Position numbers and translations under genes: made by a program. Source: a virus. Taken from it: 51,213 nucleotides of DNA. Positions 14,325 to 49,699 of this stretch are shown in pieces; positions within the stretch are counted from its first letter, which is position 1, and the number at the start of each line of letters is the position of its first letter. The stretch covers positions 1-51,213 of IMG/VR virus record IMGVR_UViG_3300030103_005941; one strand, given 5' to 3'. The notes below the pieces were generated by a model. That model was not told the DNA's origin, did no database searches, and worked only from the letters and a program-made list of their open reading frames with translations.

Positions 14325-14346
14325 AACTAAATTTTTTATTATATAT

Positions 14347-15480: not shown

Positions 15481-15532
15481 TTTATTATTTTACAAGGTTA
15501 AAAACTATATTATATATCACATATTAGCTATG

Positions 15533-33228: not shown

Positions 33229-33476
33229 TGAATGATCAAGAGAGAAAAGATCTTAAAAATATAAGATACTACAAAGGAACGGTTTCTGACTTCAAAAATT
33301 TCTTTGATGATAAGGCAAAAGAAACTACTGGTAAGGATGAGGATACTAATGCATTTGGAACTCCTGAATATAATGGATTCAATGATGTCCACCCGACTCG
33401 TGGTGCTAACCAAAGCCCACATTGGAAGACTAGTAATATAGATGAATCTGCTATTCCTAGATTCAAGGACTTTTAA
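33228..33476 (+). CDS. Hypothetical protein with C-terminal leader-like motif
   Basis: 82 residues, acidic and hydrophilic, probably partly disordered. It contains 'VSDFKNFFDDKAK' near residue 20 and ends 'SAIPRFKDF', echoing the KFKDF / PKFDIF leaders of the two preceding genes but at the C-terminus. It converges on bS21, overlapping its stop by 4 nt. No family is recognised. Confidence 0.55.
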   Translation: MNDQERKDLKNIRYYKGTVSDFKNFFDDKAKETTGKDEDTNAFGTPEYNGFNDVHPTRGANQSPHWKTSNIDESAIPRFKDF

Positions 33477-34383: not shown

Positions 34384-35262
34384 TTAGAGGCAACTAAAAT
34401 ACCTGTCGCCTCGGTCACATAAAAAAGTTACAACAATCCCTTCTGGATCGTTATCTTCTATCCATTTTTCGGCAGCTAGTATATTTGCACCGGCTGAAAT
34501 GCCAACAAATATTCCGTGTTCTTTTGCAAGTTTTCTAGAACGATTTTTGGCATCTTCTGTTTTTATTCTGGTGACTTCGTCAACCTCGTCCATGTCGACT
34601 AAGAATTTTGAGCCATCGCCGATTCCTTGTATTCCATGCAAGCCAGGTTCACCACCACTCATCACTGGCGATTCGTCTGGTTCTACTGCGACTACTTTCA
34701 TGTCTCTCCAAAATCCCTTAAGACTTTGTCCACAACCCATTAGTGTTCCGCCAGTACCAGTTCCAGTTACTAAAGCATCTATGGTGTGCGTATCTTTATA
34801 TTCTTGTATTATCTCTTGAGCAGTTGTAAAATAGTGCGAACTAATATTGATAGGATTGCCAAATTGGTTACAATTAAACCATCCATTTTTCTCACATAAT
34901 TCATCACGCATTCTAATCGCCTCATCAAAATCTCCAGCTGGAACTAAAACAAGTTCAGCGCCATAATATTCGAGAGTCTTTTTGCGCTCTTCTGACATGT
35001 TAGTAGGCATTACTATCACACAGTTATAGCCACGCTCAGCAGCTAACCACGCAAATGACACACCCATATTTCCAGATGTAGCTTCACAAATAGTTCCACC
35101 TGGTTTTAGCTTGCCAGATCTTTCAGCATCGTTTATTATCCAACTTGCTGGACGATCCTTGATAGATCCAGTAGGATTAAATATTTCAGCCTTTGCCCAC
35201 AACCTATCGCTAATTTTGATCATAGGTGTTTTTCCTATGCTATCGCTAAGTCTATTTTGCAT
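34384..35262 (-). CDS. cysK: Cysteine synthase (O-acetylserine sulfhydrylase)
   Basis: 292 residues from ATG 35262 (an earlier TTG at 35280 is possible). The PLP lysine is K35 in 'NPTGSIKDRPA', followed by the substrate loop 'ATSGNMGVSFAW' and the phosphate-binding 'TGTGTGGT'. The 'GISAGAN' segment and C-terminal 'CDRGDRYFSCL' are typical of CysK/CysM. It makes L-cysteine from O-acetylserine and sulfide. Catalytic motifs are intact and the length is near the usual ~300. A phage copy probably supports cysteine, Fe-S cluster or thiol supply. It lies next to serine hydroxymethyltransferase, so two serine-linked enzymes are adjacent. CysM cannot be excluded from sequence alone. Confidence 0.92.
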   Translation of the reverse strand: MQNRLSDSIGKTPMIKISDRLWAKAEIFNPTGSIKDRPASWIINDAERSGKLKPGGTICEATSGNMGVSFAWLAAERGYNCVIVMPTNMSEERKKTLEYYGAELVLVPAGDFDEAIRMRDELCEKNGWFNCNQFGNPINISSHYFTTAQEIIQEYKDTHTIDALVTGTGTGGTLMGCGQSLKGFWRDMKVVAVEPDESPVMSGGEPGLHGIQGIGDGSKFLVDMDEVDEVTRIKTEDAKNRSRKLAKEHGIFVGISAGANILAAEKWIEDNDPEGIVVTFLCDRGDRYFSCL

Positions 35263-35263
35263 A

Positions 35264-35539
35264 TTAAATGTAGTCTTCAACTATGTCATCATCAATCTCG
35301 CATATCTCACCAGCTTGGCCAAATTCTTCAGGATTTCCCCATTCTTGGCAACATGCATAGAGCACATCGGCAAGCTCATGGTCTCGCTCCCATCCTGATT
35401 CAGTTAGTATATGCACTTCTTGCCCGTCCCAGCCATCGTAATAACGGTATTCTAGACTTTCTCCTTTATACTCTAGTTCGCCTTGCCATAGTTGGTCTTC
35501 TTGTAAGTTTGCTGCCTTAATAACTTTAAAAATTGCCAT
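35264..35539 (-). CDS. Hypothetical acidic protein
   Basis: 91 residues, very acidic and aromatic-rich ('LEYRYYDGWDGQEVHILTES', C-terminus EICEIDDDIVEDYI), with two adjacent Cys (ACCQEW). The stop at 35264 lies one base before the cysteine synthase ATG. The 5' end overlaps the tiny membrane gene by 14 nt. Family not recognised. Confidence 0.65.
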   Translation of the reverse strand: MAIFKVIKAANLQEDQLWQGELEYKGESLEYRYYDGWDGQEVHILTESGWERDHELADVLYACCQEWGNPEEFGQAGEICEIDDDIVEDYI

Positions 35540-36101: not shown

Positions 36102-37247
36102 TTAATTTTGTAGTGTGGAAATTATCTTACTGCATATTTCTTTAAAATAATCCTTATCAGGTCCTTTTTTAGTAACCATAGCTGCAGTTCCTAATCTTAT
36201 ACCCGACGTCTCCCAAACGCCCCTTGGATCATTAGGTATCGTATTTTTATTTACAACGATGTTATATTTAGATTCAAGACAATCTGATACTTCTGCACCC
36301 GACTTATTTCCGGTATGTATTAGAATTATATGTGAATCTGTTCCGCCGGTAGTAAGCTTGATTCCATGGTGTTCAAAAATTTCACACATATATTTTGACA
36401 TGTTAATAACATCTTTGGTATAAGTCTTGAAGGCTGGCTGTAGAGCTTCGTAATATGATTGCACCTTGCCAGCAACCTGGTTCATTAATGGCCCACCCTG
36501 TGTTCCTGGAAATACTCCTGAGTTTATTTTTCTTGAATATTCTTCATTATTCCATAAGATCATTCCACCTCTAGCACCTCTTAATGTTTTATGGGTCGTG
36601 GACGTAACGAAATCAGCAAAAGGAAACGGGCTTTGATATACTTTTCCGGCTATCAACCCACTATAATGAGCCATATCTACTAGTAGGTAAGCATCAACTG
36701 CGTCGGCTATTTCCCGAAATTTTTTGAAATCTATCTGTCGAGGGTAAGCTGATGCTCCAGCAATAATCAATTTTGGTTTTAATTGTAAGGCTTGTTTTTT
36801 AATGGATTCATAATCTAACCAACCATCTTGATCTACTCCATAAAAATTATTATCAAACCATTTACCACTAATATTAGCCTGAGAGCCGTGAGATAAATGA
36901 CCACCTGATGATAAATCCATTCCTAGTATGGAATCCCCAGGTTTTAGAAATGCTTTGAATATTGCTAGGTTTGCATTAGCTCCGCAATGTGGTTGTATGT
37001 TAGCGAAGTTACAACCATATAATTTAGTAACTAATTCTATGCCATATTTTTCTAACTCATCGTAGAACTGACAACCGTTATAATATCTCTTACCTGGATA
37101 ACCTTCCGCATATTTGTTTGTGAACTCAGATCCGCATAATTGCATAACCTCTTCAGAAGCAAAGTTTTCAGAGGCGATAAAGTTATGTTCTGCTTCCTGT
37201 CTATTCTTTTCCCTTTCAAGGATTAATCCTATATTTTTGTCAGTCAT
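36102..37247 (-). CDS. glyA: Serine hydroxymethyltransferase
   Basis: 381 residues, shorter than the usual ~417. Conserved parts are all visible: 'NFIASENF', 'TNKYAEGYPGKRYYNGC', 'NIQPHCGANANLAIF', 'GMDLSSGGHLSHGS', 'LLVDMAHYSGLIA', and the PLP lysine K220 in 'TTHKTLRGARGGM'. The C-terminal domain is somewhat trimmed. The enzyme converts serine plus THF to glycine plus CH2-THF, the one-carbon donor for thymidylate synthase, matching the phage dCMP deaminase. A TATAAATA sits 5 nt before the ATG, so close that a promoter role for this gene is doubtful. Confidence 0.95.
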   Translation of the reverse strand: MTDKNIGLILEREKNRQEAEHNFIASENFASEEVMQLCGSEFTNKYAEGYPGKRYYNGCQFYDELEKYGIELVTKLYGCNFANIQPHCGANANLAIFKAFLKPGDSILGMDLSSGGHLSHGSQANISGKWFDNNFYGVDQDGWLDYESIKKQALQLKPKLIIAGASAYPRQIDFKKFREIADAVDAYLLVDMAHYSGLIAGKVYQSPFPFADFVTSTTHKTLRGARGGMILWNNEEYSRKINSGVFPGTQGGPLMNQVAGKVQSYYEALQPAFKTYTKDVINMSKYMCEIFEHHGIKLTTGGTDSHIILIHTGNKSGAEVSDCLESKYNIVVNKNTIPNDPRGVWETSGIRLGTAAMVTKKGPDKDYFKEICSKIISTLQN

Positions 37248-37261
37248 TTAGTATTTATATG

Positions 37262-37334
37262 TGACTCGGCTGGGGTTCGAACCCAGGACCCATACATTAA
37301 AAGTGTATTGCTCTACCAGCTGAGCTACCGAGTC
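37262..37334 (-). tRNA. tRNA-Lys (UUU)
   Basis: Cloverleaf visible on the minus strand: acceptor GACTCGG/CCGAGTC, D-arm TAGCTCAGCTGGTAGAGC, anticodon stem ATACA/TGTAT with loop CTTTTAA giving anticodon UUU, and T-arm CTGGGTTCGAACCCCAG. 73 nt; 3' CCA is not encoded. Supplements AAA-rich phage codon use. Confidence 0.95.
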
Positions 37335-37705: not shown

Positions 37706-37730
37706 AATATAAAATTTAGATTAAAAATAG

Positions 37731-37804
37731 TACTCCGACTAGGATTCGAACCTAGGACCTACTGCTTAGAAGGCAGTTGCTCTATCCAGCTGAGCTACCG
37801 GAGC
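37731..37804 (-). tRNA. tRNA-Arg (UCU)
   Basis: Acceptor GCTCCGG/TCGGAGT (two G-U pairs), D-arm TAGCTCAGCTGGATAGAGC, anticodon stem ACTGC/GCAGT with loop CTTCTAA giving anticodon UCU, and T-arm CCTAGGTTCGAATCCTAG. 74 nt; no encoded CCA. It reads AGA, common in A/T-rich phage genes. Confidence 0.95.
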
Positions 37805-38054: not shown

Positions 38055-38405
38055 TTATCTTTTTCCCCCATAATATTTTGTTGCGTGGCCTTCTGTAATT
38101 AACATCTCGTTCAGGCTCCATCCACCTAATTCAAGAAATAGTTCTCCTAAGCATCTACCATATTTTCCTACGCCATGCGACACTAAAACAAATTTATTAC
38201 CATTTGATTCTAATTGGTCTACCAAGTATTGTTTAGCCGCTAGGCCTTTTTTCTTTTCATCTAAGTCTCGTGTCCTCGATTCCCATGCATCAATACCGTT
38301 AAGTCTAATACGTACCTTTTTCCAGGTATCAAATCCTAAGTCCACTAGAGCATCAACGGTATCACCATCTACGACTCTTTCTAATTTTGCATTATAAGTA
38401 TACAT
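38055..38405 (-). CDS. SNase-type nuclease (thermonuclease-like)
   Basis: 116 residues, an SNase OB fold without signal peptide. Conserved residues in order: 'RVVDGDT' (D13, D15), 'VRIRLNGIDAWE' (R34, E42), and 'VGKYGRCLGEL' (R84). These are the metal-binding Asp and catalytic Arg/Glu/Arg of the family; the protein is short, close to the minimal domain (~110-130). It cleaves DNA or RNA with Ca2+; intracellular location suggests host DNA breakdown or nucleotide salvage. Its 5' end overlaps the 44-residue gene by 14 nt. Confidence 0.88.
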   Translation of the reverse strand: MYTYNAKLERVVDGDTVDALVDLGFDTWKKVRIRLNGIDAWESRTRDLDEKKKGLAAKQYLVDQLESNGNKFVLVSHGVGKYGRCLGELFLELGGWSLNEMLITEGHATKYYGGKR

Positions 38406-38956: not shown

Positions 38957-39388
38957 TTAGTGGTAATAAGCTAGGAGGTTAAGTTCTTTCTTCACCTTGT
39001 TCCAATAGCAATGTGTTCTTGAAGATCTATGGCCAGATGGGCCTCCATTCCAACATCGTGCTATAGTTTCCCAGTCTGAATTAGGATGGTAATATCCTCT
39101 CCAGATATGAAACATTTCAATTGATTTCTTTACGCTATATCGATCAGTGTATCCATACCTAACATCGCTTCCATCCTTTTCTAAGATTCGATTAACTTCC
39201 CGAACCATAATTGGCCAAATCTGCAATACTCCAACTGCCCATCCCCGGTCTCCTACTGCAGTAGAATCACCACGAGACTCAACTTGAATAATTGCCTCAA
39301 CTAAAAAGTCGATTGGCATATCCTCATATTGAGCATGAGAAACGCTTAGTGATAATGATAGTGTCAAAAATAATAGAAGTTTTTTCAT
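38957..39388 (-). CDS. Secreted lytic-transglycosylase-like endolysin
   Basis: 143 residues with a clear signal peptide (MKKLLLFLTLSLSLSVSHAQ). The mature part carries SLT/lysozyme-type motifs: catalytic Glu37 in 'IQVESRGDSTAVG', 'GVLQIWPI' and 'IARCWNGGP'. Length suits a single-domain muramidase. It would be exported by Sec and cut the glycan strand; with the M23 peptidase it gives two bond specificities for lysis. The following gene is also secreted. Confidence 0.85.
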   Translation of the reverse strand: MKKLLLFLTLSLSLSVSHAQYEDMPIDFLVEAIIQVESRGDSTAVGDRGWAVGVLQIWPIMVREVNRILEKDGSDVRYGYTDRYSVKKSIEMFHIWRGYYHPNSDWETIARCWNGGPSGHRSSRTHCYWNKVKKELNLLAYYH

Positions 39389-39392
39389 AGTT

Positions 39393-39779
39393 TTATTTTA
39401 AGAATTTAAGTTTAACCTTTTCCGAAATAGGAGTCGGATCTCCGGTCTCATCAATCTTGACGAATGTAATGTGTGTTGATAGTATTACTTTTTGCTTACC
39501 ACTGTAAACGTTATGCGATCGGGCTTCCATGTAGAGTTTTATTGAAGTATTCCCAACCTGCTCTACTACGCCATAAATTTTAATTAGTTGTCCTTCCTTT
39601 GCAGGTCTCTTAAATACGCACTTATCAATTTGTACTGTAACCATCCTAGGCCAATCGCAACACTCTGTAGCATACGCCGCCCCTGCAGCATCGAGCCATG
39701 CCAAGAGTTTGCCGCCAAACAGGTTTGCATGGAAGCCTAGATCTGATTTCTTAACAGGATGTGTAGTAATTAAGTCCAT
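39393..39779 (-). CDS. Hotdog-fold acyl-CoA thioesterase
   Basis: 128 residues with the YciA/BFIT-type start: 'HANLFGGKLLAWLDAAGAAY', where the Gly-Gly loop and D30 lie at the active site. A central strand 'VTVQIDKCVFKRPAKEGQLI' and the C-terminal 'VILSTHITFVKID' complete a single hotdog domain. Such enzymes hydrolyse acyl-CoA thioesters. A phage use could be altering fatty-acid/CoA pools or membrane lipids. It overlaps the preceding gene by 1 nt. Confidence 0.82.
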   Translation of the reverse strand: MDLITTHPVKKSDLGFHANLFGGKLLAWLDAAGAAYATECCDWPRMVTVQIDKCVFKRPAKEGQLIKIYGVVEQVGNTSIKLYMEARSHNVYSGKQKVILSTHITFVKIDETGDPTPISEKVKLKFLK

Positions 39780-40222
39780 TATTTTAAATCAATCTTGGTT
39801 TCATTCTTTCTTAATGCATATTCCTCAGCATAATACTGGTATAGCTCGATTGTGTCCATAGGCTCTTGTTCCATCGCCTCATCCCATAAACAAAAACCAA
39901 AATGATTACGAAGTTCTTTCTTTAGTGTATACAGTAAATAGTCCTCGTCAAGATTTGCATCCTCGAGAAGTTTATGAGATCTTATTTTCATGAGGTGCGA
40001 TGCCTCATTTGCAGCGTCTTGCCTATCTTGCTCATTGCATCCTAAATAATTGTCATAGGCATTCTTTGCCTTTTCATCAGCGAGTGCAGTTGCGTGCTTT
40101 GCCTGGGCAAAATAATCAGAATATTCAAAATCGCCATTTACGATTCTGTCAAAAAGGTGTACAGAAGAAGGAAGTTTCTTTTTCGTTCTAAATCTCCACC
40201 ATTTGAATTTGTTGTATCCCAT
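39779..40222 (-). CDS. Hypothetical acidic helical protein
   Basis: 147 residues. A basic N-terminus (YNKFKWWRFRTKKKLPSS) is followed by long helices rich in Asp, Glu and Ala (AKHATALADEKAKNAYDNYL). It ends one base into the thioesterase ATG (TAATG type). Family not recognised. Confidence 0.65.
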   Translation of the reverse strand: MGYNKFKWWRFRTKKKLPSSVHLFDRIVNGDFEYSDYFAQAKHATALADEKAKNAYDNYLGCNEQDRQDAANEASHLMKIRSHKLLEDANLDEDYLLYTLKKELRNHFGFCLWDEAMEQEPMDTIELYQYYAEEYALRKNETKIDLK

Positions 40223-40279
40223 AATCAGTTATACTATAACAATAACTATTATTATATGAAAAACAAATGATAGGTTTTT

Positions 40280-40450
40280 TTAATCAAAAATTTGTGTAAT
40301 AAAGATTGGTAGGTAAAATGGCCAAAATGCCACCCACATTACTCGGTTAGTGTTCGAGATTTTTACTTCTCTTTTAGCAATGTATTCACTGCAGAAATCT
40401 AAAACAAATGAAAAACAAAATCCAACTACAAAGTAGTAAATTAAATGCAT
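40280..40450 (-). CDS. Small membrane protein
   Basis: 56 residues (MHLIYYFVVGFCFSFVLDFC...), hydrophobic at both ends (second span 'VMWVAFWPFYLPIFITQIF') with a charged middle (SEYIAKREVK). ATG 40450, TAA at 40280-40282. It follows the kinase gene by 18 nt. Probably a two-span protein. Confidence 0.55.
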   Translation of the reverse strand: MHLIYYFVVGFCFSFVLDFCSEYIAKREVKISNTNRVMWVAFWPFYLPIFITQIFD

Positions 40451-40468
40451 TAAGTGGTTTTTAAAGGG

Positions 40469-41215
40469 TTATCGTTTAATAGCTGCTCTCTGATCTTTGA
40501 CCCATGCCTTGCCTACTGGGTTTTTAAGAGGTGCTGAAACAAATTTGTTTATTGCATTTCTGACCTCTTTGCCTGGAAGGCCGGCCATGGTATTATCAAC
40601 AACAGTGATATTTGATTGTCCAAATAACTGTTGGAATTTACCCATGTTCTGTTGTACATCACTCCAGATCTCTTTCACCAAAGCCTCAGGCAATGACCTG
40701 TTCCTGGCCTTATTTCTCTCCTGTGCAACTTCTAGTGACGTGTTTACAAATAACATGTAGGTGTCGTATCCTAGTGCTTCGAGTTTTGCTCTCTTGTTTG
40801 CTATTTTGTCATAGTTATCACCAGTTCCATCTAAGATCATACCAAGCCTTCCTGACTTGTACATCTCTTCCTTTTTCTGCTTCATGGTTTTAGCACGACC
40901 TCGAGGACTGTCTGGACCCATTGTTACTTTAGAAAACTCAGCAGGGCTCATTGTTCTGAGTTTTTTAGCATCAATACCAGCTTTGTCCATATAGTACTCA
41001 AACTCCCTGTCTGAATTAACTACCTTTAAACCACTAGGAGTCAAGTTGAAAAATTTACTTTCGTCAAAATCAAATAGATTAGAGGCAACGTAGCTCTTGC
41101 CAGATCCTGGGCCACCTGCTAAAAAAACTGCTTTAAGTATGCCAGGGTCATTGACGCCCTCAAGCAGCTCATCCTTTTCAGTAATGAAATTATTAAATGT
41201 TACTATGTGTTTCAT
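40469..41215 (-). CDS. Leader-tagged P-loop kinase (zeta-toxin/AAA-33-like), candidate packaged protein
   Basis: 248 residues. The leader 'MKHIVTFNNFITEKDE' fits the family leader, with I-T-E at 11-13. A P-loop NTPase domain follows: Walker A 'GGPGSGKS' (34-41), and 'MILDGTGDNYDKIAN' as a Walker-B/lid-like segment. Then come 'GYDTYMLFVNTSLEVAQERN' and 'KARNRSLPEALV'. This layout is that of zeta-toxin/polynucleotide-kinase-like proteins (AAA_33 type). If packaged it could act on host molecules at once. The C-terminus is basic. It ends the leader-tagged operon. Confidence 0.75.
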   Translation of the reverse strand: MKHIVTFNNFITEKDELLEGVNDPGILKAVFLAGGPGSGKSYVASNLFDFDESKFFNLTPSGLKVVNSDREFEYYMDKAGIDAKKLRTMSPAEFSKVTMGPDSPRGRAKTMKQKKEEMYKSGRLGMILDGTGDNYDKIANKRAKLEALGYDTYMLFVNTSLEVAQERNKARNRSLPEALVKEIWSDVQQNMGKFQQLFGQSNITVVDNTMAGLPGKEVRNAINKFVSAPLKNPVGKAWVKDQRAAIKR

Positions 41216-41219
41216 ATCC

Positions 41220-41546
41220 TTATTTTCTTACTGTTACTGTGCCCACTTGATTCATTCCTAAATGTGGATCACAATGGTAATTGTATTTTCCAGGCTTAGT
41301 AAATGTATGCGCATATGTCCAATCCTTTCCTACCTCGTTTCCAAAACTTTCAGGATTATCCTTGTTTCTTTTGTGGGATTTGTTACCATTCACATTATGA
41401 ACACCTTCTTCATTTATCCATTTAACGGTATCGCCAACCTGTATTACAATGTTCTCAGGAACAAACTTCATATCCTTTATCTCTACAGTATAGGTTTCAT
41501 CCTTATCTGCATTTATAAACTTTTCGTAAACTTTTATGTACTTCAT
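41220..41546 (-). CDS. Leader-tagged cupredoxin (amicyanin/plastocyanin-like)
   Basis: 108 residues from ATG 41546 (a longer in-frame start at 41576 is less likely because it hides the leader). The leader is 'MKYIKVYEKFINADKDE', then an eight-strand cupredoxin: 'VEIKDMKFVPENIVIQVGDT', 'VKWINEEGVHNV', 'AHTFTKPGKYNYHCDPHLGM'. The copper ligands H50, C92, H95 and M98 are all present, with C-x2-H-x2-M spacing as in amicyanin. Normal cupredoxins carry electrons in the periplasm; here there is no signal peptide but a head-type leader. An electron-transfer or copper role in the virion or injected state is inference. Confidence 0.85.
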   Translation of the reverse strand: MKYIKVYEKFINADKDETYTVEIKDMKFVPENIVIQVGDTVKWINEEGVHNVNGNKSHKRNKDNPESFGNEVGKDWTYAHTFTKPGKYNYHCDPHLGMNQVGTVTVRK

Positions 41547-41547
41547 G

Positions 41548-42042
41548 TTAATCGTCTTTATATAAGTCTGGGTCAATAGGGTTAGGATCTAACGCAGCTT
41601 TAAGGTTTCTTTTTTGCCACTCATAAGATACTTTATCTTTTTTAATTGGTCCTCCTGCTGCCCATGTATTACACGTTCTCGCTGAATGACACTTGAACTG
41701 ATGCATCCAACAATAGCCCAAGACTCCAAACTCATCCTCAACGGGTTCAGATGTTACTGCAGGAATGCATTTTTCAACCATTCTAGGAGATATATCAAAT
41801 GCTACACAATCACCACATCTTGACTTTTTTGCGGCTTTGACTGTCGTATCCCATTTTTTTGCAATCTTCTGCCAATAATCTCCAGGCTCTTCAACATTTA
41901 ACGGACCATAATTGATATAGTCAGAACGAATAGCTCTATCTCTATTTGCAGTGTTTAATGCAACGCTTTGGGTTGGGGCTGGACAGGTTTTTATGTCATT
42001 ATTTTCATTTATGAAATTTATAAACGGTACTACGTGCTTCAT
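41548..42042 (-). CDS. Leader-tagged Cys-rich protein
   Basis: 164 residues. The leader 'MKHVVPFINFINENNDI' has an I-N-E site. A Cys-rich domain follows with nine Cys (K-T-C-P, SRCGDC, EKCIPA, GYCWMH, FKCHSARTC) and several His, and includes 'CPAPTQSVALNTANRDRAI' and 'GPLNVEEPGDYWQKIAKKWD'. This combination appears in hypothetical proteins I associate with marine T4-like phages. The Cys/His pattern suggests a metal- or FeS-bound or disulfide-rich domain. It lies beside the cupredoxin, so the two might share a redox task. Confidence 0.65.
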   Translation of the reverse strand: MKHVVPFINFINENNDIKTCPAPTQSVALNTANRDRAIRSDYINYGPLNVEEPGDYWQKIAKKWDTTVKAAKKSRCGDCVAFDISPRMVEKCIPAVTSEPVEDEFGVLGYCWMHQFKCHSARTCNTWAAGGPIKKDKVSYEWQKRNLKAALDPNPIDPDLYKDD

Positions 42043-42049
42043 GTTTTAT

Positions 42050-42580
42050 TTATTTAAATGTTGCTACGATATCATTGCCATCGTATTTTGTATTCTTTAC
42101 CGGTAATTGTCTTTTGATATAAGCCATGTATAGTTTTGCACGCCTGTGGTCATCAAAGCCTTCTGTTTTTGAAGGTGATACTTTCATCGTTTTTATGCCT
42201 TTGGATTTATAATCAATGTCCTTCATAAACTCTTTGGCGGCTTTCACAATTGTAGCCATTACACTGAACAGGCGACCCTTGTTAACAACTTGGGTCCCAT
42301 CACCAAATCCGTCGTCTTCGGGTATCACAAAAAAGTCTATAGTGAAATATGGGCCACCGTACACACCACGTGCATAATAATGGTCACCCCAGAAAGCCTG
42401 TAATCTCACTTCATACAGATCACCGTCTTCCGTCTTGAATAGCACAGTTCTTTCGGCGCTATCATCATCGGCTGCTCGATTATCAGATTTTGTATACCTG
42501 TAAGCCTTTGCACTGCCTTCGCCTACTTCTAGAATTAGTTTCTCAAAAATAAAATTGCTAAATTTTGTAATGTGTTTCAT
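42050..42580 (-). CDS. Leader-tagged paralog 1 of five
   Basis: 176 residues. The leader 'MKHITKFSNFIFEKLILEVG' has two (I/L)-x-E-type sites, I-F-E and I-L-E. A family domain follows with 'GSAKAYRYTKSDN', 'VNKGRLFSVMATIVKAAKEF' and 'DDHRRAKLYMAYIKRQLP'. This copy is closest to paralogs 3-5. It overlaps paralog 2 by 4 nt (ATGA). The fold and activity are not recognised; R-R-A-x-LY-x-AY could be a structural helix. Confidence 0.7.
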   Translation of the reverse strand: MKHITKFSNFIFEKLILEVGEGSAKAYRYTKSDNRAADDDSAERTVLFKTEDGDLYEVRLQAFWGDHYYARGVYGGPYFTIDFFVIPEDDGFGDGTQVVNKGRLFSVMATIVKAAKEFMKDIDYKSKGIKTMKVSPSKTEGFDDHRRAKLYMAYIKRQLPVKNTKYDGNDIVATFK

Positions 42581-43092
42581 TCTCGTATGTCTACGCTTAT
42601 TTCAGTTCCGTCATCTTGTATATTCTTTACATTTGGTATATTCCTTCTAATATATGCCATGTAAAGATTATTTCTTCTTTGATCGTCTTTACTTCCCTTT
42701 TTAGTTTTTGCACCGGTAAATGTGAGTGTCTTTATATTTTTTCTTTTTTTAAGAATCTTTTTTGTTATATCTACTATTGTAGCCATAACTCTAAACAGTT
42801 CACCTTTATTAGTTTCAACGCTATAATCAAGTCCCTTAACGTCAACTACACCGAATTCAATTTTCATAATCTGCCACTCACCATCTTTTGAAAAATCTTC
42901 ATCAATTTCAAACATTACTTCATAACGAGTACCTAAATCGGTTACAAACTCATAAATCATATAATAATCTTTAAAGTAAGGTCCACTATCACTTCGAGTC
43001 AATTTATATTTGTATGGTTTTGATCCACCATCTCCTATTTCAAGTATTAGCTTTTCAAAAATAAAATCGTTAAATTCAGTGATGTGTTTCAT
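42577..43092 (-). CDS. Leader-tagged paralog 2 of five (most divergent)
   Basis: 171 residues. The leader 'MKHITEFNDFIFEKLILEIG' is followed by the domain. Conserved 'NKGELFRVMATIVDITKKIL' and 'DDQRRNNLYMAYIRRNIPNV' are present, but the core differs more: there is no FWGD segment and the middle is Asp/Lys-rich. It overlaps paralog 1. It is perhaps an older duplicate or under different selection. Confidence 0.7.
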   Translation of the reverse strand: MKHITEFNDFIFEKLILEIGDGGSKPYKYKLTRSDSGPYFKDYYMIYEFVTDLGTRYEVMFEIDEDFSKDGEWQIMKIEFGVVDVKGLDYSVETNKGELFRVMATIVDITKKILKKRKNIKTLTFTGAKTKKGSKDDQRRNNLYMAYIRRNIPNVKNIQDDGTEISVDIRE

Positions 43093-43098
43093 GTTAAG

Positions 43099-43626
43099 TT
43101 ATTTTAATTTAGCCGTAATTATTTTGCCATTATATTTGATGTTAGAAGTTGGTAGATGCTTCTTTATGTATGCCATGTAAAGATTAGCACGTCTGTGATC
43201 ACTCTTGCTAGATTTTGAAGGAAATATCATCATTTTTTTGATGTCCTTTTCCTTGTAGTCAATATCATTTATAAATTCTTTAGTGGCTTTTACTACGGTA
43301 GCCATCACTTTGAATAATCGGCCTTTGTTAACAACACGCTCGGCATCATCATATAAACCATAATCATCTTCTGTAGTGAAATCAACCTGAAAATACGGTT
43401 CAGGTTTAGCTTTATCACGCTCTATAGCCGGCCCCCAAAAAGCTTTCAGGTTTACTACGTAATTGTCTCCATCTTCTGTTTCGAATCTGATATCTCTATA
43501 TTTAGCCCCATCTCTCGTTGGGAAGTCATCATCGATTTTGTAAGGATATGCTTTGGCAGATCCTTCTCCAACTTCAAGTATAAGCTTCTCCAAAATGAAA
43601 TCTGTGAATTTATCGATATACTTCAT
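43099..43626 (-). CDS. Leader-tagged paralog 3 of five
   Basis: 175 residues: 'MKYIDKFTDFILEKLILEVG' leader, then 'GSAKAYPYKIDDD', 'RDIRFETEDGDNYVVNLKAF', 'VNKGRLFKVMATVVKATKEF', 'DHRRANLYMAYIKKHLP'. The order of blocks is the same as in the other copies. It lies 6 nt after paralog 2's ATG region, tandem and same strand. Likely product of local duplication. Confidence 0.7.
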   Translation of the reverse strand: MKYIDKFTDFILEKLILEVGEGSAKAYPYKIDDDFPTRDGAKYRDIRFETEDGDNYVVNLKAFWGPAIERDKAKPEPYFQVDFTTEDDYGLYDDAERVVNKGRLFKVMATVVKATKEFINDIDYKEKDIKKMMIFPSKSSKSDHRRANLYMAYIKKHLPTSNIKYNGKIITAKLK

Positions 43627-43630
43627 TAGT

Positions 43631-44149
43631 TTACTTAAGTTTTGCTACGATTTGATTGCCATCATATTTGACTCTGGCAACAGGTAATTGTCTTTTAATA
43701 TAAGCCATATAAAGTCTGGCACGCCTGTGGTCATCATCGTCTTTTGATTTTGTAGGTTCTATTATTAACGTATCTATACCTTTTTCTTTATAATCGATAT
43801 CCTTTAGAAATTCTCTAGCGGCTTTCACTACAGTAGACATCACTCTGAATAATCGACCTTTGTTAACAACAACATCTGCATCGTGAGTACCAAAGCCATA
43901 ATATATGTAAAAGTCTATTTGAATGTGAGAACCAAACTCCTTGGCTATGTAACCATCTCCCCAATATGCAGCCAGCACCACTTTATAGTCGTCACCATCC
44001 TCTGTTTTAAAAGATACCTCTCTACTATGGTCAGTCTTATCTGGTTGGTCTTCTTCGATTTTGAATTTATAAGGTTTAGCCGAACCTTCGCCAATCTCAA
44101 GTATTAGCTTCTCTGAAATAAAGTTACTGTAATTAATTATATGCTTCAT
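43631..44149 (-). CDS. Leader-tagged paralog 4 of five
   Basis: 172 residues: 'MKHIINYSNFISEKLILEIG' leader, 'GSAKPYKFKIEED', 'EVSFKTEDGDDYKVVLAAYW', 'VNKGRLFRVMSTVVKAAREF', 'DDHRRARLYMAYIKRQLPVA'. The (I/L)-x-E sites here are I-S-E and I-L-E. It lies 4 nt from its neighbours. Confidence 0.7.
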   Translation of the reverse strand: MKHIINYSNFISEKLILEIGEGSAKPYKFKIEEDQPDKTDHSREVSFKTEDGDDYKVVLAAYWGDGYIAKEFGSHIQIDFYIYYGFGTHDADVVVNKGRLFRVMSTVVKAAREFLKDIDYKEKGIDTLIIEPTKSKDDDDHRRARLYMAYIKRQLPVARVKYDGNQIVAKLK

Positions 44150-44153
44150 TTGG

Positions 44154-44681
44154 TTACCTAATTTTTGCTACTATTTCGTCGCCATCATATTTTATACTCG
44201 CTACAGGTAATTGTCTTTTGATATAAGCCATATACAGCTTGGCACGTCTATCATCAAAAGCACCTTCTGTTTTTGTAGGAGCCACTTTTAACAGATTTAT
44301 GTTATTTTTTTTATAATCTAAATCATTCATAAATTCTTTGGCTATTTGTACTACGGTAGCCATCACTCTAAATAATCGACCCTTATTTACAACAATATCA
44401 GTATCAATAAACTCTGTCTTTGGATCTTTAAGATAAAAGTCTATTGTGAAATGAGCGCCTTCTTTTTCAGCTACATAGTGATCGCCCCAAAATGCGTTCA
44501 TCGCTACATTATATTGGTCACCATCTTCGGTTTGAAAGGACACTCTTCTATATGCCCCATTTTTATTGCTATTTCTTTGATCATCCAGTATCTTAAAATT
44601 ATAGGGCCTGGATGATCCTTCTCCAATCTCGAGTATGAGTTTTTCTAAGAGAAAATCATTTAGAGTGTTTATGTGCTTCAT
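44154..44681 (-). CDS. Leader-tagged paralog 5 of five (first in transcript)
   Basis: 175 residues from ATG 44681; an in-frame GTG two codons upstream is less likely because it hides the family leader 'MKHINTLNDFLLEKLILEIG'. Same blocks: 'GSSRPYNFKILDD', 'RVSFQTEDGDQYNVAMNAFW', 'VNKGRLFRVMATVVQIAKEF', 'DDRRAKLYMAYIKRQLPVAS'. The ATG overlaps the preceding gene's stop (ATGA). First (I/L)-x-E is L-L-E, second I-L-E. Confidence 0.7.
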   Translation of the reverse strand: MKHINTLNDFLLEKLILEIGEGSSRPYNFKILDDQRNSNKNGAYRRVSFQTEDGDQYNVAMNAFWGDHYVAEKEGAHFTIDFYLKDPKTEFIDTDIVVNKGRLFRVMATVVQIAKEFMNDLDYKKNNINLLKVAPTKTEGAFDDRRAKLYMAYIKRQLPVASIKYDGDEIVAKIR

Positions 44682-45256
44682 GACCACGGGTGATTTCTTC
44701 TATATTTTTCTGGAAAGTTGATCAGTCCTAGCACCAATTTTCTAGGAATGTCAAAATTAATTTTATAGGTATCAGGATTGTAATTGAAGTGGGCCTGAAT
44801 GTTACCGTCCTTTAATTCACCCTTACGATGCCCAATCAGATAACCCCGCTGTGGCCCAGAATTGATCTTAGATATCACATTTCCAGGATTAAGTTTCTTG
44901 TAGTTAGCCAGAAATCTTTTGTAATCTCCTGGAAGCATTTCAGCAGAATCGCCAAAGAATCCAGAGTCCTTAGCCTCAGTTGCTAGATTTGCCTGAGGGA
45001 GTGAAGTCTCAATTTCAGATTGCATGTAGTCTGCTGCAGCTTTAATATACTCCTTGGCTTTAATAATTTTAGATTGTAACCAATGTGGAAAGTCAACCTG
45101 TTCAGGTCCGCCTCCTAGGTATTCAATCATATCATTTATTCTTTGGGCTGAATCTTTTATGATAAAAAGATCTTGTTGCATCATCCCAGGTTCATCGTCT
45201 TTGTGGCCAAAATCAATGTCCTCGTGGAATTGCTGTAAATTCTTTATGTTCTTCAT
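44678..45256 (-). CDS. Leader-like structural/hypothetical protein, first of operon
   Basis: 192 residues from ATG 45256; further upstream in-frame codons would run into the terminator zone. It begins 'MKNIKNLQQFHEDIDF', a weaker version of the leader. The motif 'VDFPHWLQSKIIKAKEYIKA' (~55-75) closely resembles a short helical segment that I associate with proteins of T4-like marine phages (often ending a protein). The C-terminal part ('INSGPQRGYLIGHRKGELKD') is beta-rich. It overlaps paralog 5 by 4 nt and follows a terminator, so it starts the leader-tagged operon. Function not known. Confidence 0.65.
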   Translation of the reverse strand: MKNIKNLQQFHEDIDFGHKDDEPGMMQQDLFIIKDSAQRINDMIEYLGGGPEQVDFPHWLQSKIIKAKEYIKAAADYMQSEIETSLPQANLATEAKDSGFFGDSAEMLPGDYKRFLANYKKLNPGNVISKINSGPQRGYLIGHRKGELKDGNIQAHFNYNPDTYKINFDIPRKLVLGLINFPEKYRRNHPWS

Positions 45257-45293
45257 AGTGTATCTATCTTTAAATGTATTAGTAAAAGTTTTG

Positions 45294-45321
45294 AAAAAAG
45301 AAGCCCTCACTTGGAGGGCTT
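45294..45321 (-). terminator. Intrinsic terminator between DUF932-like gene and leader operon
   Basis: A perfect 8-bp stem AAGCCCTC/GAGGGCTT (45301-45308 with 45314-45321), loop ACTTG. On the minus strand it is followed by TTTTTT. It would end transcripts coming from the 375-residue gene. On the plus strand a T-run also follows, so it may work both ways. Confidence 0.9.
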
Positions 45322-45329
45322 AGTTTTTT

Positions 45330-45346
45330 GGATCTTTGTCAGATCC
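45330..45346. other. Second hairpin beside the terminator
   Basis: A perfect 6-bp stem GGATCT/AGATCC (45330-45335 with 45341-45346), loop TTGTC. It lies in the gene-free 45257-45400 gap, close to the intrinsic terminator, and may add to it or be part of a 5'/3' RNA structure. Confidence 0.6.
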
Positions 45347-45400
45347 AATGTGCAGGGATTGGAAGAGAGAGATGTTACCTGCAAATTAATGTATTATATA

Positions 45401-46528
45401 TCATGATTCTCCACGTAAACGTTCCAATTGAGCCTCAGAAAGTAAATTATTTTTAGCAAATGGATTTACAGTTACCTCATCTTCTAGATTGTACTTATTT
45501 GCTAGTAATTGTCCAGCACCTACAGCTAGATTTCCTCTCGCAACAGTAAACTTACCTTCAGCGTTTGAAGCAGCATTTGTCATTCCATTTACAACGTCCC
45601 ATACCTTTACCCCCGAGTCAGCTCGACGCATTTGCTCTTGAGTAAAATCAGCAGGATCATGCCCTAATATCTTGTAAGCTTGTGAAGATCTGATAATAGG
45701 AGCATAGCGCTCTACAAACTCGTTATCACGACCAATTGCCTTTGCAATCATGTTATTAGCCTTTTGAAGCTCATTAAGTGATGCATTGGTATTCATTGCC
45801 CGAGTGACCATATCTTGGAAACCTCGTGGCTTAAAAGAATTAGCAGCTAGGGTTAACATATGCTCGTTAAATCGACGGATGTTATGTTCAGATAATGAAT
45901 TTAGAGAGATAGTATCTCCAATACTCTTAGTGGTCATTCCGTTAGCACACCAAAGGCGAGTCATATAAGGAGATACTTGGATCCCTTTGTCTGGCGTGTT
46001 TCTAAAAGTGACTCCTGTCTGAAAAACTTCTCGCTCCATGCCAGGAATCTTGAATGCACCGTCTGTAGAGCAATTGATAATTGCACCACTTCCGTTAGAA
46101 TCTGCAGTGTTGACATTTAGATCATACTCATCAACATAGCGTTCAATAGTGTTAAAGAAAGACTCATTATCAATTCCAGGAGACGATGCTTTCATAACTG
46201 CAACAATCTCACGAGTATTTATGTCAACCATTAGGGCAACTTCTGACTGTGGTGAAATTTGCTTTACAGCATCGATTAAGGACTGGAGACCTTCTGATCC
46301 AAATCCTTTCATCCAACGATTTACAAATGCAGATGGAATACGTAATGCATTTAGTAGCATCTTAAATGCATCCTTTGTCATTTTGATACCGACGCCATCA
46401 AGCTCGATATGGTCGTTTGATACCACTTTAAGTTCTGAGATATCAACTACTCGGCGTAAGGTAGTCTGATGTGATGCCTTTTCTTTGACTCGGTTCCAGG
46501 CTGTTGTAGATAAAGTTGTATGTTTCAT
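45401..46528 (-). CDS. DUF932-like phage/plasmid protein
   Basis: 375 residues. The middle part (~150-235), with 'PYMTRLWCANGMTTKSIGDT' and 'HNIRRFNEHMLTLA', resembles the DUF932/plasmid-phage protein pattern, where 'R-x-x-CxNG-x' is a typical motif. Beginning and end are helical and hydrophilic. DUF932 proteins are common in phages and plasmids; no function is assured. Motif copy 2 lies 17 nt upstream and a terminator lies downstream, so it is an independent transcription unit. Confidence 0.65.
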   Translation of the reverse strand: MKHTTLSTTAWNRVKEKASHQTTLRRVVDISELKVVSNDHIELDGVGIKMTKDAFKMLLNALRIPSAFVNRWMKGFGSEGLQSLIDAVKQISPQSEVALMVDINTREIVAVMKASSPGIDNESFFNTIERYVDEYDLNVNTADSNGSGAIINCSTDGAFKIPGMEREVFQTGVTFRNTPDKGIQVSPYMTRLWCANGMTTKSIGDTISLNSLSEHNIRRFNEHMLTLAANSFKPRGFQDMVTRAMNTNASLNELQKANNMIAKAIGRDNEFVERYAPIIRSSQAYKILGHDPADFTQEQMRRADSGVKVWDVVNGMTNAASNAEGKFTVARGNLAVGAGQLLANKYNLEDEVTVNPFAKNNLLSEAQLERLRGES

Positions 46529-46545
46529 AGATATTATTTATTGAT

Positions 46546-46561
46546 TTACACTTATAATATA
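46546..46561 (-). promoter_or_regulatory. Promoter-like motif copy 2 (DUF932-like gene)
   Basis: Plus-strand TTACACTTATAATATA; minus-sense TATATTATAAGTGTAA, an exact fit to TATATT-N3-A-R-TGTAA. It ends 17 nt before the ATG. It shares the flank TGTGT before TATATT with copy 1. Confidence 0.65.
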
Positions 46562-46634
46562 ACACAATGGGTAAAAGTTTAAACCTGTGGGTGAAAAAAA
46601 TGCGCCATAAACTAAAAAAAGTTTTCATGCATGC

Positions 46635-47132
46635 TTAATCGCCAAATTTGAACTTGATCTTGTCTCTTTGCCACTTGATCTTCATGATCTTGATCACATA
46701 GATCAGATGGTAAGTACATATGAACCAGATCTGGATGGCTTCGAAGATCAGCATATCTAAAAATATGGTAGGGTAGAACATAAGGCTGAGTTTACCGAAG
46801 TATTCAACTCGTTCGTCGTTCCACATTGCAGTTGTGGCTCCTATGAAAAACAGGGCTGCTGCAGTGTAGTGCATTACCGGTTGTTCAAATTTATCAAAGC
46901 ATGCAAGTATTACCAGCATACCTGCTGTGAACTGCCATTTAGGATCTGCGTGGATCATCAGGCCAATTGCCAGGATTGAGAACAGGATGCTGAAGTTTCC
47001 GAGCATCATTTCGTAGTAGGCTGAATAGCTGTCGAGTGGGCCGTATTGGGCCGGAAGTGCTGCAGTGGCATAGATGCCTCCAGTGGCTAAGATGAGTCTT
47101 AGCACTAGTGCGATCCATGTTCTGTTGAGCAT
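46635..47132 (-). CDS. Polytopic membrane protein
   Basis: 165 residues with about four to five hydrophobic segments (WIALVLRLILATGGIYAT, NFSILFSILAIGLMIHA, FTAGMLVILAC, YTAAALFFIGATTAMW, LDMLIFEAIQIWFICTY) and a basic C-terminus (KIKWQRDKIKFKFGD). No family is recognised; it may alter the host membrane, exclude superinfection or transport something. It stands alone, with ~110-nt non-coding flanks either side (46529-46634 and 47133-47247). Confidence 0.7.
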   Translation of the reverse strand: MLNRTWIALVLRLILATGGIYATAALPAQYGPLDSYSAYYEMMLGNFSILFSILAIGLMIHADPKWQFTAGMLVILACFDKFEQPVMHYTAAALFFIGATTAMWNDERVEYFGKLSLMFYPTIFLDMLIFEAIQIWFICTYHLIYVIKIMKIKWQRDKIKFKFGD

Positions 47133-47247
47133 CTTGTTTTGTGATTTATATTATTTATTTAGATGCTTCTGATTATCCTGCTAGGGAAATAGGACAAATT
47201 TTTGAAATAGGAAAAAAATACAGGAAAAAAATAACCAGACCAGAAAA

Positions 47248-47553
47248 TTAGTCATTGCCAGTGGTAACGACCTTTACCCCACGGATCCTTTGAAGCTGAT
47301 CACGATCTGCCTGATCAATAGAACCTTCGACTTCTAGGTGGTAAACTTTACCTATGAGTCCTGGTGAAGTCTCGGCCTCTTCTCGCTGGTATAACACCGG
47401 GCCAGGCCCATCGATGATCTTCCAGATCTTCTGATATCTACCTTTATACTGATTTGACGGCTTGACCCCTTGAATAGTAATATAGGCATTACCGGGCTTT
47501 GGCTCGTAAGACTCTTTTAATGACCATGCGAAAAATCCTGACACGTACTTCAC
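47248..47553 (-). CDS. Small protein with leader-like start
   Basis: 101 residues from a GTG start at 47553. It begins 'MKYVSGFFAWSLKESYE', which resembles the leader with an L-K-E site. A beta-rich rest follows (YITIQGVKPSNQYKGRYQ, VYHLEVEGSIDQADRD). It stands apart from the main leader operon, so packaging is only suggested by the N-terminus. Confidence 0.6.
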   Translation of the reverse strand: MKYVSGFFAWSLKESYEPKPGNAYITIQGVKPSNQYKGRYQKIWKIIDGPGPVLYQREEAETSPGLIGKVYHLEVEGSIDQADRDQLQRIRGVKVVTTGND

Positions 47554-47566
47554 TGTTTATATATTA

Positions 47567-47761
47567 TTAATCTAAGACCTGGGCTAGATGCTGTAATAGC
47601 TCAGGGTTCTCGTAATCCTGGCCACCGGGCCAATGCAACGAAATTTCTGATGGTCCTACAGGACCTTGTATCCAACGGATAATTATATCATCGCCTTTCC
47701 AGTTACAATGATATTCTAATTCTTGCCACTGCGGGTCTCCTAGTTCTATCTTATTACTCAT
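47567..47761 (-). CDS. Hypothetical protein
   Basis: 64 residues, Trp-rich and acidic (QWQELEYHCNWKGDDIIIRW). Member of a run of three small overlapping genes; the first base overlaps the next gene by 4 nt. No family is recognised. Confidence 0.6.
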   Translation of the reverse strand: MSNKIELGDPQWQELEYHCNWKGDDIIIRWIQGPVGPSEISLHWPGGQDYENPELLQHLAQVLD

Positions 47762-48000
47762 AGTCCTGTCTTATATGGATCATTCCAACCGGTCTCAGGA
47801 CTCCAGCCGGACTTCAGGGCCTCGACCATGGGTCCTGAGCGAAACTGTGACTTTGTTCTAGGATCTACTACTCTGAAAGTCCTTGCGGTTTCTGTCTGTA
47901 CATCGTAAATCCACAGGTCTTTACCCTGGTGATTCACCGTCCACCTTTTGGTTACCTGTAGGGACTCACAGGATACTATGTGTAGATCTTCAGTCTTCAT
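47758..48000 (-). CDS. Hypothetical protein
   Basis: 80 residues, beta-strand-rich (ESLQVTKRWTVNHQGKDLWI) with three Trp. It overlaps its neighbours by 4 and 11 nt. Layout like the following 71-residue protein, suggesting both derive from a similar small beta fold. Confidence 0.6.
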   Translation of the reverse strand: MKTEDLHIVSCESLQVTKRWTVNHQGKDLWIYDVQTETARTFRVVDPRTKSQFRSGPMVEALKSGWSPETGWNDPYKTGL

Positions 48001-48205
48001 TGACTTCTAGTAATTTAGGGTTATCTGTTATCTGATCAATTACCTCGTGCTCGTATAGCATCTCTTCGGTCTCATGGATGTAAAGCGTCATCGTACAATT
48101 ACCGGGCGAATCTACTCGGTATAGGGTCATCTGTTTTCCGTCTACCTGAAGCTCGTATGCCTTGGTCTCTGTTATTGGCATCTGTTTAAGGGTCTTAATA
48201 TCCAT
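47990..48205 (-). CDS. Hypothetical protein
   Basis: 71 residues (MDIKTLKQMPITETKAYELQ...), with an antiparallel-strand pattern (KAYELQVDGKQMTLYRVDSP) like its neighbour. It is the first gene downstream of the G+C-richer gene-free segment, so its transcript probably begins in or before that segment. Confidence 0.6.
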   Translation of the reverse strand: MDIKTLKQMPITETKAYELQVDGKQMTLYRVDSPGNCTMTLYIHETEEMLYEHEVIDQITDNPKLLEVNED

Positions 48206-48439
48206 TCTGAGTAATTTATTATTATATGCAAGGTTCTAGAAAAGTTTCTGGAGGCCTCTGAAAAATTTCTGGATTTTTTTTGGTTCTGGGACTTACTTTT
48301 TTTTCTCTCTCGATTCCTGGGCTCGATCCTGGGATACCCTGGATTTTCCGGGAGCGCCATGGCCGGCCTGGGACATTGCATATTGCCGGCAAATAATATG
48401 CTCGAGCGCATTATATACTCGCTATATGTACAAAATATG

Positions 48440-48459
48440 CTCCAGGAGCGCGCCTGGAG
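48440..48459. repeat. Inverted repeat in gene-free segment
   Basis: 7-bp perfect arms CTCCAGG/CCTGGAG (48440-48446 and 48453-48459) around AGCGCG. No T-run follows on either strand, so not a typical terminator. Confidence 0.7.
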
Positions 48460-48737
48460 GCCTCTGTGGGGCCCTGTGGAGGCCTTATAGGGACTTTTTA
48501 GCCATTTTATGCGCTTTTTTAGCCCCCAGAGGCCTTTTTGCGAGGCATTTAGGGACTTTTTGTCTTTTTTATGCCATATATGGCCTTTTTAGTCAGTACT
48601 AAGGGCTTTTATGTACTGTATATGCCTGTACAGTGCCTGTGTGCCATATAGGCTACCATATATGCTGTGTGGTTGTGTGTGGTATGGCCATAGTTGTTTT
48701 TTGCCTCGTAATATGAGCCTGTGGCGCGGTCCTGGGA

Positions 48738-48750
48738 GCCTCCTGGAGGC
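48738..48750. repeat. Short perfect palindrome in gene-free segment
   Basis: GCCTCC-T-GGAGGC, 6-bp arms around one base; same core (CTCC/GGAG) as the 48440 inverted repeat. Confidence 0.6.
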
Positions 48751-48946
48751 ACTTTTATGCGGTTTTTACCTTAAAAAAGGCTCTTTTCTGCGGTAACGTT
48801 GCGTGCAGCGTAGACTGTTTGTGTAGAAAAGTCGTTGTTTGTGGTAACACTCGTGAGGTACTGTACTAGGCCTCTGTGGCTAGGCTAGTGCTGCGGTAGT
48901 CTTGTGCTGTGGCAAGTAGATCTGCCTGTACAGGGTGCCTGTGGTA

Positions 48947-48971
48947 CTAAAAAGGGCCCACGTGGGGCCCT
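48947..48971 (-). terminator. Intrinsic terminator after the 53-residue membrane gene
   Basis: A 7-bp perfect stem AGGGCCC/GGGCCCT (48953-48959 with 48965-48971), loop ACGTG. On the minus strand it is followed by TTTTTAG. It lies 24 nt below the stop at 48995 and ends the 50.6-49.0 kb transcripts. Confidence 0.85.
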
Positions 48972-48994
48972 CTGTAACAAACACTGTGGTAGGC

Positions 48995-49156
48995 CTAGTC
49001 TGTGAGGCCGTCCACACCAAAGATCGTCTGTGGCACCTTAAAGGCTAACCACACCAGGAACAAGAGTCCCAGGGCAGCTGTTGCCTGTACAAGTAAGGGT
49101 GCGTCGTCAGTAGGGTCTAGGAGCCAGTTGTAGGCAGAAGTGATCAGTTTTAGCAT
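48995..49156 (-). CDS. Tiny single-span membrane protein
   Basis: 53 residues (MLKLITSAYNWLLDPTDDAP...). Hydrophobic span ~21-40 (LLVQATAALGLLFLVWLAFK). ATG 49156, TAG at 48995-48997, 4 nt after the DUF2958-like gene's stop; followed by a terminator. Last gene of its transcript. Confidence 0.65.
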   Translation of the reverse strand: MLKLITSAYNWLLDPTDDAPLLVQATAALGLLFLVWLAFKVPQTIFGVDGLTD

Positions 49157-49160
49157 GATT

Positions 49161-49475
49161 TTAAAGGGTTTGAGGTGAAAGTTGATCTTTTAGCTCTTTT
49201 AGGGTCGTTTTAGGGTCCCAGTAGAGGTCCCTCTCCACGTGGCCTAGATTAACTAGGTCCTGGACGTTAAAGTAGCCCAGTTCAGGGTAGTCGCCGTCCA
49301 CAAAGCCAAAGGCGTGGCCAGTGTCTGGATTTAGCTCTATGAGGTACCAGGTCCAATTTGACCAAGGAGTGAAGAATTTCGCGGTAATTTTAGTCTCTGA
49401 GGAGCCTAATTCCGCGGTTTCATGGATCTGGGGCGTTATTTTCGCGATTTGCTTAGTAATTAGCTTCATACTCAT
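49161..49475 (-). CDS. DUF2958-like protein
   Basis: 104 residues (an ATG two codons later at 49469 gives MKLITKQIAK...). The pattern 'KLITKQIAKITPQIHETAEL', 'AKFFTPWSNWTWYLIELNPD', 'FGFVDGDYPELGYFNVQDL', 'VERDLYW' follows DUF2958 proteins of plasmids and phages closely. Their function is not established. It overlaps the preceding gene by 1 nt. Confidence 0.85.
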   Translation of the reverse strand: MSMKLITKQIAKITPQIHETAELGSSETKITAKFFTPWSNWTWYLIELNPDTGHAFGFVDGDYPELGYFNVQDLVNLGHVERDLYWDPKTTLKELKDQLSPQTL

Positions 49476-49699
49476 TATCTGTACATTGTTACTACCTCGC
49501 CAAAGCTCTTATCGAACTCCTGGATAAGGTTTTCATAATCACCGCTTTTCATGCGGTCTAATAGCTCGGACTGGTATTTAGAGGTCATTCCGAAGTCCCG
49601 GCATAGCTTTTTAGCTAAACCTAGGATATAGAAGGCATTTCCTTCGGGTCCTGTGAGGTCAATTTCAATACCTGTCTTTTCTTGCTTGCTTTTAATCAA
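49475..49699 (-). CDS. Small phage protein, TTG start
   Basis: 74 residues from a TTG start at 49699 (MIKSKQEKTGIEIDLTGPEG...). No ATG lies between the upstream region and the conserved part. Helical, with 'LAKKLCRDFGMTSKYQSELL' and 'NLIQEFDKSFGEVVTMYR'; this type of small protein is common in phages but unassigned. Motif copy 4 lies 30 nt upstream. Confidence 0.65.
   Translation of the reverse strand: MIKSKQEKTGIEIDLTGPEGNAFYILGLAKKLCRDFGMTSKYQSELLDRMKSGDYENLIQEFDKSFGEVVTMYR

Follow-up and report, generated by a model that had tools for sequence, protein, structure and literature searches.

The stretch of DNA analysed here, hereafter the window, comprises 51,213 of the 53,282 bases in virus record IMGVR_UViG_3300030103_005941, which carries T4-type tail genes, as recognized by a baseplate wedge family match. 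At 40469-45256 of the window, nine open reading frames (ORFs) follow one another head to tail on the minus strand, and most of them begin with the same short leader. A preliminary description of this DNA had read the locus as eight consecutive minus-strand genes sharing a leader like the capsid-targeting sequence (CTS) of phage T4. The run itself stands, with nine ORFs rather than eight, and when the leader is scored with the strict pattern MK.[IVLFM]..[FYLI]..[FY][IVLM].E, seven of the nine match (the P-loop kinase, the Cys-rich protein and five paralogs), whereas the cupredoxin (FINAD) and the gene at 44678-45256 (FHED) have degenerate versions; the processing triplet [ILV]-x-E closes the leader in seven of the nine genes. 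These features, together with one gene outside the operon, are:

40469-41215, minus strand: P-loop kinase (Zeta-toxin/AAA_33 type), leader MKHIVTFNNFITE at 41177-41215, and a second putative site, LLE/GVNDPGILKA (cut at the slash), at the body junction
41220-41546, minus strand: plastocyanin-type cupredoxin, degenerate leader MKYIKVYEKFINAD at 41508-41546, position 13 without E
41548-42042, minus strand: Cys-rich protein, leader MKHVVPFINFINE at 42004-42042
42050-42580, minus strand: paralog 1, leader MKHITKFSNFIFE at 42542-42580, then KLILE/VGEG
42577-43092, minus strand: paralog 2, leader MKHITEFNDFIFE at 43054-43092, then KLILE/IGDG
43099-43626, minus strand: paralog 3, leader MKYIDKFTDFILE at 43588-43626, then KLILE/VGEG
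43631-44149, minus strand: paralog 4, leader MKHIINYSNFISE at 44111-44149, then KLILE/IGEG
44154-44681, minus strand: paralog 5, leader MKHINTLNDFLLE at 44643-44681, then KLILE/IGEG
44678-45256, minus strand: 192-aa protein, degenerate leader MKNIKNLQQFHED without [IL]xE, membership doubtful
32643-32942, plus strand: 99-aa protein, leader MSRISKFKDFVAE, fitting except at K2, no family match

Among the outlying leader genes proposed earlier, only the one at 32643 can be retained, those at 32947 and 47248-47553 not being convincing. Paralogs 2-5 are 42-59% identical to the first paralog, and the five received their leader by joint inheritance, so that the operon holds three strict independent leader families (kinase, Cys-rich protein and paralogs), or four when the 32643 gene is counted.

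The shared leader is a real feature. Chance would yield 4.6e-4 strict matches in the 77 genes of the window, against the seven found; the strict pattern begins at none of 222 internal methionines in the window and, across four phage sequences, at none of 3,566, as against 57 matches at gene starts. When a back-translated MKHI..F..FI.E pattern was searched in viral contigs, at least 119 stretches were recovered, while the same residues at permuted spacing gave none, and a reversed-pattern control returned no match in any run. Expectation, internal methionines, permuted spacing and reversal together rule out chance. Conserved DNA is ruled out as well, since the leader codons differ between genes, with synonymous codons varying at several positions, and the similarity therefore lies at the protein level.

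The preliminary description had called for a search for further starts of the MKxIxxFxxFIxE kind, and these do occur, both in viral contigs, where MKHIKLFEQFINE is the common form, and on a contig that overlaps the window. A looser pattern is present in 26 of 29 long contigs, themselves picked from the leader searches, with up to 23 matches per contig and none for its reverse; in three nearly whole phages, the leader stands on 10 of 197, 20 of 296 and 24 of 434 called genes. Grouping 306 leader ORFs by the protein that follows (blastp E<1e-3, single linkage) gave 157 body families without detectable similarity, which confirms that the proteins behind the leader are unrelated; genes that combine the leader with related bodies were met again in other phages. 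That the leader is functional rather than inherited is strongly favoured across these bodies, with the qualification that the five paralogs inherited theirs together. Zeta/AAA_33, Tad3, PNK3P, HD, 2H phosphoesterase and cytidyltransferase types are found among the bodies, most of which have no Pfam match. For one leader protein the label Acb1 was dropped, Acb1 scoring below cut-off and a generic 2H profile higher, and it is treated as a 2H phosphoesterase. No mention of the leader strings was found in the literature searched.

The extent of the leader emerges from an unbiased set of 88 non-redundant ORFs chosen solely on K2, [IVL]4, [FYL]7 and F10. In this set, position 13 is E in 78 ORFs (background 7%), position 11 is I, L or V in 82 (background 21.6%), and [ILV]xE occupies positions 11-13 in 76; small residues (S, A, N or G) predominate at position 14, and from position 15 on there is no strong enrichment. 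Constraint is thus strong at positions 4, 7, 10, 11 and 13 and variation is free beyond 14, defining an N-terminal leader of 13 conserved residues, which fits the CTS criterion of a short propeptide (10-19 aa). Lineages differ in dialect, with the forms MKHIKLFEQF(I/V/L)NE, MKN(I/L)PTFEDFVNE and MKYI.EYEEF(I/L).E, the first two exemplified by MKHIKLFEQFINE and MKNIPTFEDFVNE. A general second cut site was considered and rejected on its weak enrichment. Leader-like cores were also seen at C-termini (IMTFEQFINKDI, LQTFNQFLKNI and AIPRFKDF, at L177:6017-7888, L180:950-2791 and window 33228-33476), with overall counts near chance; T4 Alt is processed at its C-terminus too (PMC9026906).

When the genomes carrying the leader are considered, a link to head assembly becomes apparent. 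A Peptidase_S77 (gp21-type) gene is present in 20 of the 26 leader contigs longer than 100 kb, and a Gp23 capsid gene in all 11 leader contigs tested. The portal (PF07230), the S77 protease and Gp23 were identified by Pfam and lie in this order, with a small acidic protein encoded between portal and protease and a long repetitive C-terminal half on the protease; the T4 head order is 20-67-68-21-22-23. The acidic gene starts with the leader in nine phages (7 of 11 head clusters and two further cases), and in three phages (G004, G015 and G028) a further leader gene lies between protease and capsid genes. Being small, acidic and placed between portal and protease, this leader protein occupies the gp67/68 position of T4; it has no Pfam match, and homology to gp67 is therefore not established. 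In an alignment of the acidic proteins (A4), F7, E8, F10 and [ILV]xE are kept despite 3-7 residues inserted between the aromatic block and the triplet. In the T4 CTS, residues 4 and 7 serve targeting and residues 8 and 10 processing, and gp21 cuts after L/I-x-E (PMC9026906); insertions that spare both parts match this division, as judged from the alignment. At L159-L167, the gp21-type protease domain continues into a repetitive region of about 450 residues (YSEHVAEKADQGIQYSEH...), which looks like a protease-scaffold fusion.

Homologous bodies that have exchanged their N-termini offer another view of the leader boundary. All 13 homologues of the kinase, whose unlike N-termini are mostly short (one homologue is internal to a 778-aa polyprotein of Agrobacterium phage Atu_ph07), have [ILV]-x-E immediately ahead of G-x-x-D, where the body begins, and in relatives of the paralogs (I/L/V)-x-E likewise precedes [VI]G[ED], even where the domain lies inside a long protein. 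The 46 relatives of the Cys-rich body have very different N-termini, with many alternative short starts, and L/I-x-E precedes the body in many, not all, of them. Tad3 is an inhibitor of Thoeris, a host defence system; its homologues carry the leader in two phages (L303 and L305) and lack it in two (L302 and L304), the L305 copy having T-D in place of T-E at the first site and further L-x-E sites. As the conserved junction triplet may belong to the body, these exchanges provide support rather than proof.

Taken together, it is very probable that the leader is a T4-type capsid-targeting propeptide, combining targeting with cutting, in an expanded and diversified system that this T4-related environmental phage shares with dozens of related large phages. 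The comparison with the T4 CTS made in the preliminary description was borne out: the leader is N-terminal, spans 13 residues, ends in [ILV]-x-E and precedes more than 150 unrelated body families, and its phages have a T4-type portal, a gp21-type protease and gp23, with the leader itself at the gp67/68 position. The sequences support a modular N-terminal tag of two separable parts and a protease consensus kept at the junction; they also place the tag in phages that have T4-type head genes, and on a gene at the prohead-core position. The front of the leader (MK-x-I-xx-F-xx-F) would bind each protein to the prohead core as the head assembles, and the gp21-type prohead protease would then cut after [I/L/V]-x-E, either at position 13 or at a second site at the body junction, so that the mature protein would stay inside the head. 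We infer packaging and cleavage strongly; beyond core binding, cleavage and presence in the virion, the cargo would presumably be ejected with the DNA into the bacterium and act there early in infection.

Several observations weigh against this reading. The cut triplet is missing in the cupredoxin and the 44678 gene, and a second [IL]xE in residues 14-30 is only weakly enriched (21/88 versus 102/665 body windows). Several S77-bearing T4-like phages lack such a leader, and the candidate L-[YN]-E site of the capsid protein is not at the T4 position, so that the cutting specificity is not independently established. The gp21-like protease that the preliminary description proposed to look for is present in most long leader contigs, but it was not detected in the window's record and further contigs of this phage, where the sequence read stops short of the head genes, nor in 41 more fragments from close relatives (28-81 kb each), none of which is known to reach a head cluster.

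Other explanations fare worse. The leader might target the prohead while its proteins serve as core or scaffold helpers that are cut up and lost, or kept structurally; given that the 157 body families, with kinase, 2H phosphoesterase, HD, Tad3 and PNK3P types among them, do not readily pass for scaffold, and that Tad3 is known to inhibit a host defence system, this is improbable, even if one leader family sits at the gp67/68 core position and T4 core proteins are likewise cut at L/I-x-E and mostly expelled (PMC9026906). Less probable again is that the leader directs proteins elsewhere, to a membrane or another assembly site, or is a feature of translation starts, its likeness to T4 being convergent. 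Its amphipathic appearance on inspection and the T4-like phages that have the protease and no leader would agree with this, but the conserved [ILV]-x-E is the gp21 consensus, conservation stops right behind it, the triplet persists through changes in its distance from the front part, and synonymous codons vary at several positions. Inheritance without function, that is, one gene start spread by duplication or 5'-end recombination, is the least credible: it applies to the five paralogs and would accommodate the recurrence of leader genes with related bodies in other phages, but it is disfavoured by the pattern of constraint, in which positions 4, 7, 10, 11 and 13 are strongly conserved while residues beyond 14 are free and codons differ, by the lineage dialects, and by homologous bodies that keep the junction triplet under exchanged leaders.

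The proposed propeptide can be placed beside known systems. In T4, IPII and IPIII carry the CTS MKTYQEFIAE, and Alt has the six-residue propeptide MELITE (PMC9026906). Both the T4 CTS and the leader described here are short, N-terminal and found on unrelated proteins, with an L/I-x-E cut that in the latter is predicted, and the internal protein (IP) leaders of T4 share with it the MK start and the aromatic/hydrophobic spacing F/Y-x-x-F-I-x-E. In contrast to T4, the leader has 13 residues with an extra I-x-x-F turn, stands on dozens of genes per genome rather than on three IPs plus Alt, and comes in several lineage dialects, in phages that are uncultured, as are their hosts. In Atu_ph07, which has a gp21-type protease, 13 genes start with M[KR]W..L.E; ten of these are neighbours at 39.5-49.5 kb (39484-49507, L309), several with a YRGM motif after the leader. 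By count, this run, AUZ94865-AUZ94874, begins at the 53rd coding sequence (CDS), within CDS 31-76, a block from which virion mass spectrometry detected 29 proteins, a figure for the whole block (PMC6102473); the run thus represents another leader dialect, located in a cluster of virion proteins. It resembles the window's operon in that neighbouring genes share a short leader ending in L-x-E and that its first gene encodes a polyprotein in which an internal V-T-E precedes a kinase of the same type, and differs in the leader itself (M[KR]W..L[NT]E, 8 residues, other sequence) and in a payload partly fused into polyproteins. For DarB of phage P1, an N-terminal signal suffices to package a reporter and the cargo is anti-restriction, but that signal is longer than 9 and within 30 residues, and the Dar proteins have no common consensus (PMC9024508). 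In phiKZ and SPN3US, N-terminal propeptides of head proteins are cut by the prohead protease and many of the proteins are ejected (PMC5694885); these propeptides are mostly long, have an x-E motif with A or S at P3, and include no common short leader across many unrelated proteins.

On a broader scale, we regard it as somewhat more plausible than its opposite that widespread uncultured T4-related jumbo phages load an open-ended arsenal for takeover and anti-defence through one N-terminal code, with dialects fitted to each core and genes joining by gaining a leader. Leader genes make up about 5-7% of genes, with at least 20 per genome in some phages, and the scale and lineage dialects of the system appear not to have been described before. 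If so, the effectors that a phage injects with its DNA could be read from sequence by a 13-residue motif, whereas such lists otherwise require virion proteomics; candidate early effectors would include Tad3 homologues, the 2H phosphoesterase and more than 100 leader body families, mostly without Pfam match. The idea of T4 internal proteins would then describe a general loading system rather than a few proteins, and new targeting tags for putting proteins into phage heads would become available.

Regarding the cargo of the window's operon, which may act in early takeover or anti-defence, the kinase matches PF06414 (Zeta toxin) at 37.3 bits (cut-off 22.3), with AAA_33 also above cut-off and a Walker A of GGPGSGKS; a sequence search of the PDB gave no match for it. 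The cupredoxin matches PF00127 at 59.1 bits (cut-off 21.2) and keeps the type-1 copper ligands H, C, H and M (GVHNV, YHCDPHLGM); one viral relative is a domain within a protein of about 1280 aa (L251). The five paralogs reach at best 20.3 bits against DUF6934, under the cut-off of 27. The AlphaFold model of paralog 1 is a small alpha/beta domain with a predicted local distance difference test (pLDDT) score of 73.6, and at this confidence Foldseek matched it to a Zeta-toxin protein of Atu_ph07 (E 2.2e-4) and Alt of phiAS5 (E 3.4e-4). This is a fold-level hint of a relation to Alt; homology by sequence to the T4 Alt N-terminal domain was dropped, hhalign being not significant. A PDB fold search gave nothing below E 0.01 (weak GNAT/Elp3-like matches), and tblastn in phage records gave no match.

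The window's own phage extends beyond the record. A 54-kb contig overlaps window 1-16019 at 99.8% identity, adds 38 kb of the same phage and carries further leader genes (MKNLKSFGQFLNE, MARLLGFNDFLNE, MPRIKKFSELLTE and MKHILEMNDFLNE); a third contig continues it at 99.9%, and its genes resemble T4-type replication genes on inspection. Record IMGVR_UViG_3300030103_004672 (88,677 bp) belongs to the same phage, and its positions 25340-46098 were read. Among named records LR756500.1 (462 kb) is the closest, with 35% identity in one tail-region gene; it has 20 leader-pattern matches, an S77 protease and a Gp23 capsid gene. A 133-aa protein of the window's phage (L382:2562-2963, equivalent to G070 40562-40963) contains HLNPNMNVQSMGEPSVPGNPG...QQTGSGD, matching the capsid protein just past its candidate L-[YN]-E site, and has at its end LMTFEQFNNKNI, which resembles the leader core; the matching stretch is possibly a shell-binding element.

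Near the leader operon lie genes for a serine hydroxymethyltransferase (36102-37247), a PALP-family pyridoxal phosphate (PLP) enzyme (34384-35280), a 4HBT thioesterase (39393-39779) and an SNase-type nuclease (38055-38405), and the window encodes tRNA-Lys(ttt) at 37261-37334 and tRNA-Arg(tct) at 37730-37804. The segment 48172-48880 has few genes, a G+C content above the rest of the window and no Rfam match. Finally, an SLT transglycosylase domain with a signal-like N-terminus is encoded at 38957-39388, and a DnaJ homologue at 31342-32142.

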